From the IMG/VR virus record IMGVR_UViG_3300028146_000029, positions 1-32,238 of that record: a stretch of 32,238 bases of DNA; one strand, written 5' to 3'. A program made the translations under genes and the position numbers. The stretch is from a virus. The notes under the pieces were generated by a model. That model was not told the origin of the DNA and ran no database searches. It worked only from the letters and a program-made list of their open reading frames with translations. The stretch's first letter is position 1, and each line of letters begins with the position of its first letter. Of the stretch, positions 1,971 to 28,279 are shown piece after piece.

Positions 1971-3185
1971 ATGCCCGCGACTGCAGGATATCAGGCTGGC
2001 GTTGAGGCCAACCAAACGCAACTCTCGTATGGCAATGAGGTTACCTGGGGTGCGCGGCCACTCGTGCAGTTCCAGGCGATCCGCTACACGGGCGACACGT
2101 TGGCGCTCACCAAGACGAGGCAGCGGCCGAGCGAGATCAACATCAGCCGAGAGGTGTCGGGCGCCGTTACCACGCAGCAGACCGCAGGCGGCACGATCAA
2201 CTATGCGCTGAGCTATGGCACCTACGACGACTTCTTCGCCTCGCTCTGCCAGGACGACTGGTCGCCGCCGCTGAACATCGCCAGCATCGGCACCGACATC
2301 ACCATGACGTCGACCGGCAACACGATTCAATCGCTGTCGTCCACCTTGACGACCAAGTTCACCAACGTTTCGGTCGGTCAGTATATACGGGTGTCCGGTT
2401 TCACGACGATCACGCAATACAATACTTGGTGGCGGGTGCTGACGAAGACGGATAACTCGCACATCACCGTCACCGGCAATGCGGTCCTCGTCGCGACCGA
2501 AACCTCGGCTGGGGCCAACGTCCTGATCACCGGCTCGTCGCTCAACAACGCCACGACCTTCAAAAGCCTGTTCATCCAGCAGAAGTTTTCCTCGACCCGG
2601 TTCCTCCGCTATGGCGGCGCCTACGTGACACGCATCACGCTTGGCGGCGCCGTTGGAAACTTCTTCTCGGGTGCCATCGACGTCGTTGCGCAGACGGAAA
2701 TCGCCGCCGCGGTCGAAGCCTCAACCGGTGCCACGCTGCCAGCGCCGTCAGGCACGGTGTTCGATCCCGTCGCCGGCTTCATCAGGATGAACTACAACGT
2801 CGGCACCGTCGCCGGGCTCATCGATCAGCTGTCGCTGACGCTGGAGAACACTGGTGCCGCGCCCGAGTTCAGCATGGGCGGCAGCGCCGGCGCCGACGGC
2901 ATGCTTGGCGGCACGTTCACCGGCTCGGGTGCGTTCCGCCTCTATTGCAAGGATTTCACGCTCTACAACCAGTTCCAGTCGGAGCTGTCCGCCGACCTGC
3001 AGATCTATCTGCAGGACGCGCAAAAGAACTCCTACGTCATCTCGTTCCAGCAGGTGTCGCTGTTCTGCAAGATCAACGCCACCGGCCCCGGCACGGCCGT
3101 CATGGTCGACGTGACATTTGAGGCCAACCCGGATCCCACGAACAACGGCACGTTCCAGATGGACCGCCACCCGCCACCGAACTGA
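1971..3185 (+). CDS. phage tail tube protein, copy 2
   Basis: Encodes 404 residues and is plainly homologous to the preceding gene: the same M-P-A-T-A-G-Y-Q-A-G-V-E-A-N-Q-T start, A/V-T-W-G, R-Q-R-P-S-E-I-N, the same insertion, and a similar end (V-T-F-E-A-N-P). A 42-base stretch is identical in the two genes (948-989 and 2169-2210), while the central insertion has diverged strongly, so the duplication is not very recent but the N-terminal core is conserved. ATG follows GCGAGGAGA. It may be a second tube subunit, a decorated variant, or the subunit of the tail ends. It is followed by a strong hairpin before the chaperone gene. Confidence 0.86.
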   Translation: MPATAGYQAGVEANQTQLSYGNEVTWGARPLVQFQAIRYTGDTLALTKTRQRPSEINISREVSGAVTTQQTAGGTINYALSYGTYDDFFASLCQDDWSPPLNIASIGTDITMTSTGNTIQSLSSTLTTKFTNVSVGQYIRVSGFTTITQYNTWWRVLTKTDNSHITVTGNAVLVATETSAGANVLITGSSLNNATTFKSLFIQQKFSSTRFLRYGGAYVTRITLGGAVGNFFSGAIDVVAQTEIAAAVEASTGATLPAPSGTVFDPVAGFIRMNYNVGTVAGLIDQLSLTLENTGAAPEFSMGGSAGADGMLGGTFTGSGAFRLYCKDFTLYNQFQSELSADLQIYLQDAQKNSYVISFQQVSLFCKINATGPGTAVMVDVTFEANPDPTNNGTFQMDRHPPPN

Positions 3186-21040: not shown

Positions 21041-21081
21041 AAAAAAAAGGCGGTGCACCCATTGGCCACGGGCGCACCGCC
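21041..21081 (-). terminator. rho-independent terminator
   Basis: Stem GGCGGTGC (21049-21056) pairs with GCACCGCC (21074-21081), perfect over 8 bp, and on the minus strand is followed by eight T (the A-run at 21041-21048). It lies 21 bases after the stop of the first PEP-CTERM gene and closes that unit. This is the clearest intrinsic terminator in the window. Confidence 0.88.
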
Positions 21082-21102
21082 AAGTTCAGACCTCAGATAG
21101 CC

Positions 21103-21795
21103 TCAGCGGCGCTTGCGCGACGCTGCGGCGGCGGTGCCCAGCAGGCCGAGGCCAAGCAGGGCTAGGGATGCAGGCTCCGGGATCGGCGCACAGCTTGTCG
21201 TGCTGGTCAGCTCGCACAGCCCGCTCACGCGCGGCTGCTTGAAGCTGTTGAAGCCGAAGGCCGTGCCAGGGATGTCGTTCTCCACCTTGATGTCGGTGAT
21301 GAACTCGCCGTTCACCGCCACCATGGTCAGGAAGTTCTGGCCATTACCGAGGGCGAAAACGAACGGCGCACCGAAATTGTCGGTGACGGTGATCTTCGCC
21401 GTGCCGGTGCCGAAGTCGAGGTTGATGATCGCGTCGGTCCAGGCGGTCTTCTTGCCGTTGGCATCGAGACCGGCGGTCATTTCGATCGAGTTAAGCTGGG
21501 CCGACTGGTTGCCGCCGTTGTTGATGCAGTTCAGAGCGCAGAAGATGTCCGCCTGCCCCTTAGCCTGCTGGGTGAGCACCTGTCCGGTGAGGCTGCGGAA
21601 ATCCACATCAGCGCCGGTATGATCGACCTCACCGTTGTCGAGCACGACACCAACCTGTGAGGCTTCGAACAGGATGTTGTCCTCATTGGCCTGCGGGTGG
21701 TTGCCAGTCGTGAAGATGATGTTGGCGGACGCTGGTACTTGGCCCCAAACCAAGGCACCGGCGATGAGTGCGGTCGTGGTCAGTAGTCGTTTCAT
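21103..21795 (-). CDS. PEP-CTERM protein 1 (secreted, exosortase substrate)
   Basis: Encodes 230 residues from the ATG at 21793-21795, with AGGA eight bases upstream; the longer in-frame start would hide the signal peptide. Residues 1-24 are a Sec signal (basic K-R, hydrophobic core, A-S-A before the cut). The mature part is beta-rich with four cysteines in two close pairs. The C-terminus is a classic PEP-CTERM signal: I-P-E-P-A-S near 205-210, a Leu/Gly helix, then S-R-K-R-R. Such proteins are cut and released or anchored by exosortase and usually go with exopolysaccharide production. No exosortase is in the window, so the host must supply it. A terminator follows. Unusual as phage cargo. 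Confidence 0.9.
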   Translation of the reverse strand: MKRLLTTTALIAGALVWGQVPASANIIFTTGNHPQANEDNILFEASQVGVVLDNGEVDHTGADVDFRSLTGQVLTQQAKGQADIFCALNCINNGGNQSAQLNSIEMTAGLDANGKKTAWTDAIINLDFGTGTAKITVTDNFGAPFVFALGNGQNFLTMVAVNGEFITDIKVENDIPGTAFGFNSFKQPRVSGLCELTSTTSCAPIPEPASLALLGLGLLGTAAAASRKRR

Positions 21796-21830
21796 GGTAT
21801 CGATCCTATCCCAGTTGGGTGATGAAGGCG

Positions 21831-21855
21831 GGGGCGGCATTCCCAGTGCCGCCCC
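21831..21855 (-). other. 9-bp inverted repeat between the PEP-CTERM genes
   Basis: GGGGCGGCA (21831-21839) and TGCCGCCCC (21847-21855) pair perfectly around a 7-base loop. It lies between the stop of PEP-CTERM gene 2 and the start of gene 1. Without a T-run it is not a standard terminator, but may lower expression of the second gene or stabilise the mRNA of the first. Confidence 0.5.
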
Positions 21856-21885
21856 GTCGTTCCCAGACGCGGAGTTGCTCCCCGC

Positions 21886-22557
21886 TTATGCGTCGCGACG
21901 CTTGCGGCTGACCATGCCGAGGCCGAGGAGGCCGACGCCCAGCAGGGCCATCGTGGTGGGCTCTGGCGCGGCCACGGAGGCATTCGCGACGCCACTGAAG
22001 GACGAGGTGAATGGCGCGATCGTGGTGCCAGCGATGGCGAGGCCGCTGAGGTTCGACATCGAAAGAGTCCAGCTCGACGGCGCAGCCAGATCGGCCGCCG
22101 GGATGATGCTGGAGCTCAGCAGCAGCGCGTCGGGCGGATTGGCGACGTTGACCGACAACTGAGAGCCACCGGTGAGCCCGAACGCCGCGTCAGTGAAGCT
22201 ACCCTGCAGGTCGATGGTGCCCGAGCAGTTTGCACCCGAGGCGACGCAGAAAGTGCCGCTGTAGTGCTGCAGGATCGCCGGGCCGATCGTCGTGGCCGCG
22301 TCAGTCGAGTGTGCGTTCAAGGTGAAGATCGCGGCAATCGCTGGCGGCGTGACGACACCGAACAGCTGGCTGATCAGGACGTTCGCGCCAAGCGGGTTGA
22401 TCGTGGTGATCGTGGTCTGCGTGTTGCCCACGTTGGTCGTGGCGACGAGCGTGTTGAGAGGCGAGGTCTGGCCGAAGCTGATGATCTGCGTGGCATTGGC
22501 CAGTGGAGCGGCAGCGACGGCAGCGATTGCCGTGGCAGCCAGTAGCAGGTTTCGCAT
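21886..22557 (-). CDS. PEP-CTERM protein 2 (secreted, exosortase substrate)
   Basis: Encodes 223 residues from the ATG at 22555-22557, preceded by AAGGGA. The signal peptide covers residues 1-22 (Leu/Ala core, A-N-A cut site). The mature part is low in charge, rich in Thr, Ser and Ala, and contains one close cysteine pair (C-V-A-S-G-A-N-C), like many PEP-CTERM exported beta-sandwich proteins. The end has A-P-E-P-T-T near 197-202, a Gly/Leu helix, then S-R-K-R-R-D-A. It is only distantly like its neighbour apart from the sorting signals. The AT-rich stretch upstream probably holds the promoter of the pair. Confidence 0.9.
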   Translation of the reverse strand: MRNLLLAATAIAAVAAAPLANATQIISFGQTSPLNTLVATTNVGNTQTTITTINPLGANVLISQLFGVVTPPAIAAIFTLNAHSTDAATTIGPAILQHYSGTFCVASGANCSGTIDLQGSFTDAAFGLTGGSQLSVNVANPPDALLLSSSIIPAADLAAPSSWTLSMSNLSGLAIAGTTIAPFTSSFSGVANASVAAPEPTTMALLGVGLLGLGMVSRKRRDA

Positions 22558-22617
22558 GTGGTTGTTCCCTTGCAAGGATTGCCCCACCGGGATGGGGGCC
22601 ATGGGATACAAGCACGG

Positions 22618-22647
22618 ATTGTTCCGCTATGGTTGTAAAGAGTTCAA
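22618..22647 (-). promoter_or_regulatory. candidate sigma-70-like promoter of the PEP-CTERM pair
   Basis: On the minus strand TTGAAC (22642-22647) and AACAAT (22618-22623) are 18 bases apart, each matching four of six consensus bases. The stretch 22610-22672 is clearly more AT-rich than its surroundings and lies in the 117-base gap before the PEP-CTERM genes. Between it and the ATG a small hairpin (CCCCA/TGGGG) is visible. Weak boxes, so the promoter call depends mostly on position and composition. Confidence 0.4.
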
Positions 22648-22674
22648 ACAGTTTTATTGAAATATCCACAGGCC

Positions 22675-22893
22675 TCAAGGGCCCACGAACATGCCCATCA
22701 GGCAGACATTGCAGATCCGCTTCACCGTGCGCGGCGCGTACGGCCGGAAGTAGACGCCGTGGCCACACCGCGTGCAGGCCGAGGTCTGGTTGTCGGGGAA
22801 ATCCCCAGGATCGGGCAACCGCATGCAGACCATCAGATCGGCGGTCTCCGCGGTCGCATCATCAACCACCTGGATCGTGACCTTCTTCGTCAT
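22675..22893 (-). CDS. 72-residue zinc-ribbon protein
   Basis: The start at 22891-22893 overlaps the stop of the upstream gene (ATGA). An acidic beta-rich N-terminus (K-V-T-I-Q-V-V-D-D) is followed by C40-T-R-C43 and C61-N-V-C64 with H-G-V-Y-F-R-P-Y between them, a good four-cysteine zinc ribbon with 17 residues between the pairs. Ends with M-G-M-F-V-G-P. Last gene of the minus-strand run that begins at 25162. Function unknown. Confidence 0.72.
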   Translation of the reverse strand: MTKKVTIQVVDDATAETADLMVCMRLPDPGDFPDNQTSACTRCGHGVYFRPYAPRTVKRICNVCLMGMFVGP

Positions 22894-23081
22894 AGCAGCT
22901 TCGGCTGCGCTGGCGCCGGGGTGACGCCCGGCACCCGGGGCAGCGGCTGGTAGCGCGGCGCCTCGTAGCCCGCGTCGACCTGGGCGCGGTGTGCGAGGCA
23001 CGCCCACACCACCGTGGGGTCAGGCCACAGGCCGAACCCGAACCGGCCCGGCCCGCCGCAGATCCGACAGGCTCCGCTCAA
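22890..23081 (-). CDS. 63-residue cysteine/histidine zinc-site protein (TTG start)
   Basis: Starts at TTG (23079-23081), overlapping the upstream stop (TTGA). Residues C5-R-I-C8-G-G-P-G form a knuckle and C28-L-A-H31 completes a CCCH site. A Pro-rich tail follows. The Gly/Phe-rich segment between the cysteine pairs (R-F-G-F-G-L-W-P) is unusual. Stop and start overlap with both neighbours, so it is translationally linked to them. Function unknown. Confidence 0.68.
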   Translation of the reverse strand: MSGACRICGGPGRFGFGLWPDPTVVWACLAHRAQVDAGYEAPRYQPLPRVPGVTPAPAQPKLL

Positions 23082-23281
23082 TCAGGAGGCGAGGCCTCGG
23101 GCTGCTTCACCCAGGCCTTGTCCATGATCATCACGCCAGTTTTGCCAAGCAGGACGCGCGGCATCTCTGGCTCGAGCAGCGCCGCGACCGCGCCGCGGAG
23201 CTCCTCGATCTGCCGCGCCTGGGCTTGGTTCTCGGCCTTGAGGGTGGCGACCTCCTCCCGCAGCCTATCCTCCTCGGTCAT
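23078..23281 (-). CDS. 67-residue coiled-coil protein
   Basis: The start at 23279-23281 overlaps the stop of the beta-helix gene (ATGA). An earlier in-frame start would add His/Asp/Arg-rich residues that are clearly non-coding. Residues 3-36 form a coiled coil with heptads (L-R-E-E-V-A-T-L-K-A-E-N, then I-E-E-L-R-G-A-V-A-A-L). The rest is a short tail. It may pair with the product upstream. No family recognised. Confidence 0.68.
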   Translation of the reverse strand: MTEEDRLREEVATLKAENQAQARQIEELRGAVAALLEPEMPRVLLGKTGVMIMDKAWVKQPEASPPD

Positions 23282-24492
23282 GACCACAGGTCTCCCGCGA
23301 CGTGCGTGGTCGGGATGGTCGGGGTGGTCATCTCGAACACGATCGCCGACAGCGCTGAGCTGCTCATCCACACCTCCGGGTGCGCAGTGGCGTAGAGCGA
23401 GAAGTCGGCGACGGCCATCTGGTGGTACTGGTCGAGCGTCAACGCCGGCGGCGGCGGAGGCGGAGGAGGCGGCGGTTCCGTCGTGCCTCCACCACCAGTG
23501 CCACCACCATCGCCACCCCCACCAGTGCCACCAGTGCCCCCAGTACCACCCCCGCCATTGGCACCCCCGCTGCTCGGGTTGATGAACGTCATCGAGCTGG
23601 TATCGAGGCTCGGCCGGGAGGCCAGCAGCACGGTGCCCGACTGGGCCAGGGGCCCGGTGGACAGCTGACCCCCGGTCAGCCCGAACACGCTGTTGTTGGT
23701 GAAGCCGATCGTGGTGCCGTTGGCATCGAGGATGCCGCGGCCGCTGCCGGTGTCGTCGTTGACGACGGTGTTGCCGGTGAGCGCGACGCTGTTGCCGTAG
23801 CCGGCGGCGACGCCCTCCTCGGCGTAGGCGACGATGAACGGGTTCTGGGTTGCGCCACCCTGCTCGATCACGTTGTTGGAGATCTGCGCATTGCCGCCGT
23901 TCGGCAGGTCGATGCTGTAGCTGGCGCTGCCGCCGTTATCGAAGATCCGGTTGCCGGTGATGGTGTTGTTCGCCGCGCGCGACTTGACCTCGTGGCCGAC
24001 CACCGCGTCGTGGATGTAGCTGTTGGTCAGGGTGAAGCTGGCGATCTGCCCGATGTAGAGGTTGTGCGTGCTGCCTGACCCATCGCCGTTGTGCGAGAAC
24101 TCGCTGTGATCGATGGTGATGCTGCCGTTCGGATCCGCCGCGCCCAGGATGCCGTCCTGGTTGTCGTGGAAGTAATCGTTCGAGAGGGAGAGGTTGCCGC
24201 CCTCGTAGCGAATCGCCGCGCCGTTCCTGTCGGGCACCGTGACACCTGAGATCTCGAACCCGTTGATGACGACGTTGTCGCCATGCTCGGTGATCATCGC
24301 CTTGCCGTCGTCAGGCGAGCGGGTCTCGACCATCTGCACCTCGCCGTCGACCGCCTGCAGCGTCAGGCTCTTGTCGATCGAGAGGAACTGGTCGGTGTAG
24401 ACGCCGGCGGCGACGTCGATCGTGTCGCCAGGGTTAGCGGCGTTTATCGCAGCCTGGATGGACTGGCCTACGGCCACGTTCAGCACAGTCAT
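23278..24492 (-). CDS. right-handed beta-helix (pectate-lyase-like) protein
   Basis: Encodes 404 residues from the ATG at 24490-24492 (CAGGAGCG upstream). Residues 1 to about 300 are parallel beta-helix repeats: an opening I-Q-A-A-I-N-A-A-N-P-G-D-T-I, then many N-x-[IV]-x-G-N and N-N rungs (I-S-N-N-V-I, L-T-G-N-T-V). A Gly/Thr-rich linker (about 303-339), ten consecutive prolines (340-349) and a 55-residue helical end follow. No Sec signal is present. Beta-helix proteins of this type bind or cleave polysaccharides (tailspikes, epimerases, lyases), but catalytic residues cannot be fixed here. It lies in the accessory operon, not with the tail genes. It might be an added tail part or a protein acting on host capsule. 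Confidence 0.82.
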   Translation of the reverse strand: MTVLNVAVGQSIQAAINAANPGDTIDVAAGVYTDQFLSIDKSLTLQAVDGEVQMVETRSPDDGKAMITEHGDNVVINGFEISGVTVPDRNGAAIRYEGGNLSLSNDYFHDNQDGILGAADPNGSITIDHSEFSHNGDGSGSTHNLYIGQIASFTLTNSYIHDAVVGHEVKSRAANNTITGNRIFDNGGSASYSIDLPNGGNAQISNNVIEQGGATQNPFIVAYAEEGVAAGYGNSVALTGNTVVNDDTGSGRGILDANGTTIGFTNNSVFGLTGGQLSTGPLAQSGTVLLASRPSLDTSSMTFINPSSGGANGGGGTGGTGGTGGGGDGGGTGGGGTTEPPPPPPPPPPALTLDQYHQMAVADFSLYATAHPEVWMSSSALSAIVFEMTTPTIPTTHVAGDLWS

Positions 24493-27454: not shown

Positions 27455-27678
27455 CAGTCGATCCCAGCGAAATCGAGGATCCGCTCGGCATAGCGCGACA
27501 GCACCGTCCGTACGTCTCGGTCATCCAGCTGGGCGGCCGTGAGGGTGGCCATCATCGCTGCGGCGAAGGCCTCGATCACCAAGCCAGTCGGCTGGTCCTG
27601 CACGATCGGCGCAATCGCGTTCATCAGCTGCTCGGTCATCGCAGTGCCGGCGTCGAACTGGTCGTCGTCGTCGCTCAT
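27454..27678 (-). CDS. 74-residue acidic helical protein
   Basis: Begins M-S-D-D-D-D-Q-F-D and continues with amphipathic helices (M-T-E-Q-L-M-N-A-I-A-P-I-V, then V-I-E-A-F-A-A-A-M-M-A-T-L). The start at 27676-27678 overlaps the stop of the DpdA-like gene (ATGA). It may be a partner or a DNA-mimic-like acidic protein; the acidity is limited to the N-terminus, so this is weak. No family recognised. Confidence 0.66.
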   Translation of the reverse strand: MSDDDDQFDAGTAMTEQLMNAIAPIVQDQPTGLVIEAFAAAMMATLTAAQLDDRDVRTVLSRYAERILDFAGID

Positions 27679-28256
27679 CCGAATACCATCTGCGGCTGTT
27701 GGGCGATTCGATCCAGCCATCGCAACATTCTCCGCTCGTTGATATCCGGCGCTGTCGCGAGGAAATTGCCGTCGGCCGAGGCGCAGCCCCACATCGCTGC
27801 AGTGCGCAGGCGGACCTCGCTGTTCACCCGGCCCATGTGCACGCCCTTGCCACGCGCCAGAGCGCCGGCGACCAGCTCACGCGCCTGGTGGGACAATTTG
27901 AACCGGGTGGTGCCGCCGATGAACAGGACGTCGAACGCATCCCATGGCGGATCGCGCAGGCCGTCCTGGGCGACCAGGGCAGCCCTGAAGCCCGCGTCCC
28001 TGATCTTGGCCAGCACTGGCTCCGACAGGCGCCATGTCGCCACAGGGTCGCCCACGACGTCGGGCGCGGGCGCGAACAGGCACGTTGAGGCGGCGTAGTG
28101 GCGGCGGCGCAGGAACTCGAGGTAGAGCCCCTCGTCATACGTGCCGGTATAGCAGCCGGTATCCGCAGCCCAGGTTCCGGCGAGAAGATCGAAGACTTGG
28201 CGCCGCCTGGGCGTGGTCAGGAAACCAAGATCGGGCCGCTTCCCCACGAGCGACAT
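27675..28256 (-). CDS. DpdA-like (TGT-fold) protein, candidate DNA 7-deazaguanine insertion
   Basis: Encodes 193 residues; ATG at 28254-28256 has GGAG eight bases upstream, better than GTG at 28265. The pattern matches phage proteins related to queuine tRNA-ribosyltransferase/DpdA: A-D-T-G-C-Y-T-G at 31-38, P-D-V-V-G-D at 65-70, A-L-V-A-Q-D-G at 93-99, F-I-G-G-T-T-R-F-K-L at 112-121, H-M-G-R-V-N-S at 140-146 and G-C-A-S-A-D-G at 157-163. DpdA-type enzymes exchange guanine in DNA for a 7-deazaguanine base, which shields phage DNA from restriction. No preQ0 synthesis gene is in the window, so the base would come from the host or from genes elsewhere. It is short compared with true TGT enzymes (about 380), as known for phage forms. 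Confidence 0.68.
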   Translation of the reverse strand: MSLVGKRPDLGFLTTPRRRQVFDLLAGTWAADTGCYTGTYDEGLYLEFLRRRHYAASTCLFAPAPDVVGDPVATWRLSEPVLAKIRDAGFRAALVAQDGLRDPPWDAFDVLFIGGTTRFKLSHQARELVAGALARGKGVHMGRVNSEVRLRTAAMWGCASADGNFLATAPDINERRMLRWLDRIAQQPQMVFG

Positions 28257-28279
28257 TCGGATCACTCCGCTCAGATAGA

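Follow-up and report, generated by a model that had tools for sequence, protein, structure and literature searches.

A phage cassette for two putative exosortase substrates and a beta-helix protein, with a possible role in remodelling the host surface

The occurrence of two genes for PEP-CTERM proteins in viral DNA raises the question of whether a phage can supply the exosortase system of its host with substrates of its own and, if so, what this would do to the infected cell. PEP-CTERM proteins keep exopolysaccharide (EPS) on cells and are required for flocs and other surface traits. The locus lies in a stretch of 32,238 nucleotides from a virus record (IMG/VR IMGVR_UViG_3300028146_000029), the whole of which is referred to here as the window. 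The original prediction, made from the sequence, described two secreted proteins with complete signal peptides and I-P-E-P or A-P-E-P sorting tails, placed between phage genes as a separate unit. Taken as a whole, this interpretation is partly supported: both genes, designated PEP-A and PEP-B, were confirmed on the minus strand, and the phage does carry them as a self-contained unit that encodes putative exosortase substrates, but the unit extends further than described, as it also takes in a gene for a beta-helix protein. The two genes and their signals are as follows.

21886..22557, minus strand: PEP-A gene, first in the operon, encoding a secreted PEP-CTERM protein of 223 aa
22492..22557, minus strand: signal peptide of PEP-A, from the sequence and a heuristic test, with a predicted cut after ANA
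21895..21969, minus strand: PEP-CTERM sorting tail of PEP-A (APEP, hydrophobic helix, SRKRR)
21103..21795, minus strand: PEP-B gene, second in the operon, encoding a secreted PEP-CTERM protein of 230 aa
21724..21795, minus strand: signal peptide of PEP-B, from the sequence, with a predicted cut after ASA
21106..21183, minus strand: PEP-CTERM sorting tail of PEP-B (IPEP, hydrophobic helix, SRKRR)
22634..22650, minus strand: PEP-CTERM box (motif 1) TGTTTGAACTCTTTACA, upstream of PEP-A, a predicted PrsR activator site
22571..22586, minus strand: sigma-54 type promoter TGGGGC-N5-TTGCA, 47 nt past the box and 14 nt ahead of the PEP-A start codon
21049..21081, minus strand: intrinsic terminator behind PEP-B, a 14-pair stem followed by eight T at 21041-21048

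PEP-A starts with MRNLLLAATAIAAVAAAPLANA... and ends in the tail APEPTTMALLGVGLLGLGMVSRKRRDA, and PEP-B starts with MKRLLTTTALIAGALVWGQVPASA... and ends in IPEPASLALLGLGLLGTAAAASRKRR. Signal peptides were judged by a heuristic test of the n-, h- and c-regions together with the sequence itself, and the N-terminus of PEP-B resembles the pattern MKRLLxTTAIxxGALxx seen in proteins of other phages in the family alignment. The comparison with TIGR02595 that had been suggested at the outset gave 22.9 and 22.3 bits for PEP-A and PEP-B, both above the curated cut-off of 16, and the cut-off of PF07589 (20.7) was likewise exceeded, with 27.3 and 30.6 bits. These features mark the two proteins as putative exosortase substrates whose tails are predicted to be cleaved. 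An AlphaFold2 model of PEP-A (pLDDT 76) consists of a beta-sandwich and a C-terminal helix, with the N-terminus as its low-confidence part, and a fold search with this model returned no structural match and no solved relative. No PHROGs family was assigned to either protein.

The AT-rich promoter region that had been noticed ahead of the unit contains a specific regulatory site, namely the PEP-CTERM box and the sigma-54 site, and the strong T-rich terminator is real. Upstream of most chromosomal PEP-CTERM genes of Proteobacteria, a 17-nt motif that ends in TTTACA has been described, separated by 32-92 nt from a sigma-54 site, with PrsR proposed as the activator (Haft et al., 2006; PMC1569441). 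The phage site was matched to this motif by its TTTACA end, its length and spacing, the accompanying sigma-54 site and the copies found in hosts; the 47-nt spacer ahead of PEP-A falls inside the published range, and the 14 nt between the sigma-54 site and the start codon are below the published minimum of 23 (PMC1569441). A single copy of the box core is present in the window, where 0.01 would be expected, and of the 15 viral box sites in the loci analysed that deviate at no more than one position, 12 are followed by a PEP-CTERM gene, compared with 93 of 3000 random positions (3%). The same box is found upstream of chromosomal PEP-CTERM genes in Acetobacteraceae, and of the 20 cassette phages inspected only roughly one in three has a clear PEP-CTERM box. 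Together, these similarities suggest that PEP-A and PEP-B may be under the control of PrsR.

The third member of the unit lies upstream of PEP-A on the same strand, with two small genes in between.

23278..24492, minus strand: beta-helix gene, 404 aa, no evident signal peptide
23078..23281, minus strand: small coiled-coil gene between the beta-helix gene and PEP-A
22675..22893, minus strand: small CxxC-rich gene between the beta-helix gene and PEP-A, a gene call of uncertain membership in the cassette

The beta-helix protein contains a linker rich in Pro and Gly and, at its C-terminus, a helical domain whose last residues are GDLWS, and its structure was modelled with confidence (pLDDT 84). 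In a Foldseek search, the best match was the polysaccharide lyase RbmB, followed by PL6 alginate lyases (E 4e-5, TM about 0.4), a moderate fold match that is to be read with the general resemblance of beta-helices to one another in mind; a profile match to BcAlyPL6 (E 2e-4) aligned short stretches only. A gene related to the small coiled-coil gene is present in 6 of 20 cassette phages. Two further families were observed in 12 of 20 cassette phages each: a repeat-rich protein of the PDQGLPG type (G003:54794-55477, L163:4886-5371 and others), in several cases beside the beta-helix gene, and a small membrane protein (G022:16986-17186, G024:31316-31516, L163:7078-7302 and others), several times immediately beside the PEP-CTERM gene.

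The unit had been claimed to lie within the phage, and this is the case. The window corresponds to positions 18046-50278 of a contig of 66,879 bp at 99.99% identity, in which genes for TerL, portal, head protease and capsid occupy 2.3-14.3 kb, the tail module extends as far as 35 kb, the cassette is located at 39-42.5 kb, and exonuclease VIII and a CI-like repressor follow at 51-53 kb; structural genes are thus on one side of the cassette and replication genes on the other. Two further contigs with other metagenome identifiers share the window DNA at no less than 99.98%. A location outside the phage is excluded, and an assembly chimera is very unlikely because the window DNA lies within a phage contig and recurs in further contigs. 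A search for relatives through a tail gene returned the phage itself and nothing else. A PF00589 search of 25 records, including the 66.9 kb of this phage, found no integrase; this is weak evidence, because the same search overlooked the real integrase of another cassette carrier, G004 (L024:3692-5056, minus strand), which has the arm-binding and central domains. At least this one carrier is probably temperate, judging from its integrase. Elsewhere in the window, a DpdA-like protein of the tRNA-guanine-transglycosylase family (27675-28265, minus strand; about 50% identity to proteins of Arthrobacter and Mycobacterium phages) may point to 7-deazaguanine DNA modification, and two tandem paralogous tail-tube-type proteins are encoded at 750-1952 and 1971-3185 on the plus strand (about 75% DNA identity over 340 bases), both of which are kept, which is unusual.

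The search of phage databases for PEP-CTERM proteins that had been recommended uncovered many other viral carriers in IMG/VR. A scan with the beta-helix gene identified 40 viral loci; PEP-CTERM matches above the cut-off were present in 27 of the 36 further beta-helix records, and at 27 of the 37 loci outside the window phage a PEP-CTERM gene lies within 3 kb of the beta-helix gene. Loci without a nearby PEP-CTERM gene are mostly on contigs with cut-off ends, with one clear absence (L039). In two other phage lineages the beta-helix gene directly precedes a PEP-A homologue, with a gap of about 20 bases in G004. The control consisted of 63 phage loci (802 kb) picked by capsid or DpdA-like genes, and it yielded two PEP-CTERM matches, one false and one real, the latter being PEP-A in a phage related via its capsid gene; reversed sequences gave no PEP-CTERM tails. 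The occurrence of the tails is thus well above what chance would produce. A strict DNA pattern for the tail has at least 119 matches in the viral collection, and among the matches listed (80 loci, some on contigs that may include host DNA) 79 are tails at the end of an open reading frame, 65 come with a recognisable signal peptide and 35 belong to the PEP-A family. Many other types of PEP-CTERM protein were seen on virus contigs (L198-L275), some with the same upstream box, and because of these the phage-borne PEP-CTERM phenomenon, as read from the contigs, is broader than the beta-helix cassette. The carriers are tailed phages of different types with G+C contents of 52-66%, and many pairs of them have just 2-8 genes in common, some close groups aside, which indicates that they are mostly unrelated. 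A protein search of the cultured phages in INPHARED detected no relatives of PEP-A, PEP-B or the beta-helix protein, and a query with the tail alone for phage relatives was of little informative value, its sequence probably being masked by the low-complexity filter. Equipped with a promoter and a terminator of its own, the cassette is bordered by phage genes, occurs sporadically among phages and takes up widely differing positions in their genomes, as would be expected of a moron.

The two substrates differ in their conservation. PEP-A forms one family, of which 14 phage members were aligned (41-68% identity to the window protein); the PEP motif is invariant, the helix and the basic end are conserved, and TIGR02595 matches all 14. 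Values of dN/dS of about 0.17-0.24 among close pairs indicate that PEP-A is under purifying selection. PEP-B, according to the family alignment, is a variable slot among phages. In a pair of contigs with 97.7% identity over 10.8 kb to one side and 99.8% over 5.9 kb to the other, a single block is strongly different. This block is the body of PEP-B, whose signal peptide and tail are retained.

L040:10766-11246 versus L041:10786-11308: PEP-B body-swap block in two near-identical phages

Because only the body of PEP-B has been replaced between such near-identical phages, this exchange is the strongest hint that an exposed body may meet a changing partner.

The phage probably infects Acetobacteraceae, a family assignment to which capsid and cassette relatives point. 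Relatives of the capsid protein were found in 15 of 397 Acetobacteraceae genomes, at up to 63% identity and with portal and protease genes as neighbours, and, at no more than 44% identity, in 3 of a sample of 385 genomes of the class. The best chromosomal relatives of the beta-helix protein are mostly from Acetobacteraceae, and strong full-length homologues of PEP-A occur in chromosomal settings in 3 of the 397 genomes, two of which (G299 and G328) have at least seven copies each. These copies are scattered chromosomal PEP-A paralogues with VPAPAG tails (L179-L191). An initial scan of genome contigs with PEP-A had given no match, a limit of sensitivity, since homologues do exist. No exosortase was found in the seven phage contigs searched; the unit would therefore depend on that of the host, in line with the original prediction. 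Exosortase is present in a third of the Acetobacteraceae genomes (132 of 397), and the full-length chromosomal PEP-A homologues occur in genomes that have it; the 15 genomes in which the capsid protein has relatives all lie outside the 132 carriers (p about 0.003). Two origins were rejected: recent capture from the chromosomes searched, in view of a tree in which phage PEP-A clusters apart from most host copies, one divergent host copy being placed unsurely, and derivation from prophages of the host homologues of PEP-A and the beta-helix gene, whose neighbours look chromosomal.

The reading preferred here, with a probability of roughly 60%, is that of an accessory, moron-type phage cassette that supplies the host exosortase system with substrates and thereby alters the coat of the cell. 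When PrsK/PrsR and sigma-54 of the host are active, the box and the promoter would turn on PEP-A and PEP-B, which would be exported by Sec, retained by the PEP-CTERM helix and processed by the host exosortase, to take their place within the exopolysaccharide layer or on it. The beta-helix protein of the cassette, with its lyase-like fold and no signal peptide of its own, would act on or bind the same polysaccharide, most likely as a depolymerase that is borne by the virion or released by lysis. The net effect would be that infected or lysogenic cells have a different outer coat, for which the exchangeable body of PEP-B would provide specificity, for example against rival phages. The phage may thus be able to change the construction of the outer coat of its host; from the gene content we infer remodelling of the surface and its EPS as the function, and possibly superinfection exclusion.

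The main rival, which is unlikely, takes the phage proteins as decoys that flood the host exosortase, and PrsR as well, so that host PEP-CTERM proteins are left unanchored and the EPS coat is shed, to the benefit of adsorption, spread or lysis, with the lyase-like beta-helix protein acting in the same direction. The retention of generic sorting signals while PEP-B bodies vary, the linkage of a lyase-like partner to PEP-CTERM genes and the release of soluble EPS in Zoogloea upon misregulation or loss of PEP-CTERM control (PMC9012009) are all compatible with such a role, for which, however, a beta-sandwich of 170 residues kept under purifying selection across unrelated phages would be needless. 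It is more doubtful still that PEP-A, PEP-B and the beta-helix protein are accessory virion or adsorption proteins with the PEP-CTERM tail as a leftover of host origin: a tail-fibre-like gene adjoins the beta-helix gene and PEP-A in L032 and the beta-helix fold is also similar to tailspikes, but signal peptides and tails are retained in nearly all members, a host-type promoter is found in several, and the cassette occupies very different positions in phage genomes. That host DNA was taken for viral by mistake, through a chimera, a prophage edge or recent contamination of virus contigs, is extremely improbable, for although PEP-A homologues exist on host chromosomes, phage genes flank the cassette on both sides in the 66.9 kb contig, several contigs carry the same DNA, phage PEP-A clusters apart from host sequences, and the cassette recurs in many phages.

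Beyond the supply of substrates to the exosortase, a wider proposal can be put forward tentatively, at somewhat less than an even chance: the cassettes may constitute a widespread new class by which unrelated phages feed exchangeable surface proteins into both the exosortase route and the PrsR/sigma-54 EPS regulon of the host, along with a lyase-like beta-helix protein, in order to rebuild the host coat and control which others infect. If phages do carry and diversify PEP-CTERM proteins under host control, these would be natural tools for learning the functions of such proteins; phage infection would be linked to aggregation in environmental bacteria, and an undescribed strategy of superinfection or coat remodelling would be indicated.

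The closest known system is PEP-CTERM/exosortase (EpsH) with PrsK-PrsR-sigma54 (PMC1569441), with which the phage proteins share the signal peptide, PEP motif, hydrophobic helix and basic end and also motif 1 ending in TTTACA and the sigma-54 site upstream of the gene. Unlike in that system, the substrates here are located on phage genomes without an exosortase, in a two-gene operon linked to a beta-helix gene; phages are not mentioned in the article. The original prediction that no phage system of this kind had been described agrees with the literature searched by title and abstract, whose coverage mostly excludes subscription papers and preprints and in which no phage-borne PEP-CTERM proteins were found; the most suggestive paper on PEP-CTERM or exosortase together with phage terms concerns host genes. 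In Zoogloea and Aquincola, EPS needs PEP-CTERM proteins to stay on the cells (PMC9850573, PMC9012009), and the flocculation-associated PepA of these genera (NF033554) is matched weakly by each of the 14 phage PEP-A proteins. In the window protein the matching part runs from residue 81 to 221; with 36.5-40.3 bits against a cut-off of 80, this protein is not a member of that family, and the bodies differ. The chromosomal PEP-A family of Acetobacteraceae shows full-length homology at about 45% identity and the same promoter box at several copies, but its tails are mostly VPAPAG, and its members are single chromosomal genes that have no nearby beta-helix partner and form separate clusters in the tree. 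The linked protein has the right-handed beta-helix in common with RbmB, the biofilm polysaccharide lyase of Vibrio cholerae, and with PL6 lyases, to which it shows 12-15% identity and a TM of about 0.4, and it is polysaccharide-lyase-like by fold only. Morons of lysogenic conversion are known to alter the cell surface, for example through O-antigen modification or superinfection-exclusion genes. The cassette is likewise a self-contained transcription unit among phage genes that is likely to act at the surface; unlike those morons, it would do so through the exosortase sorting route and the EPS regulon of its host.
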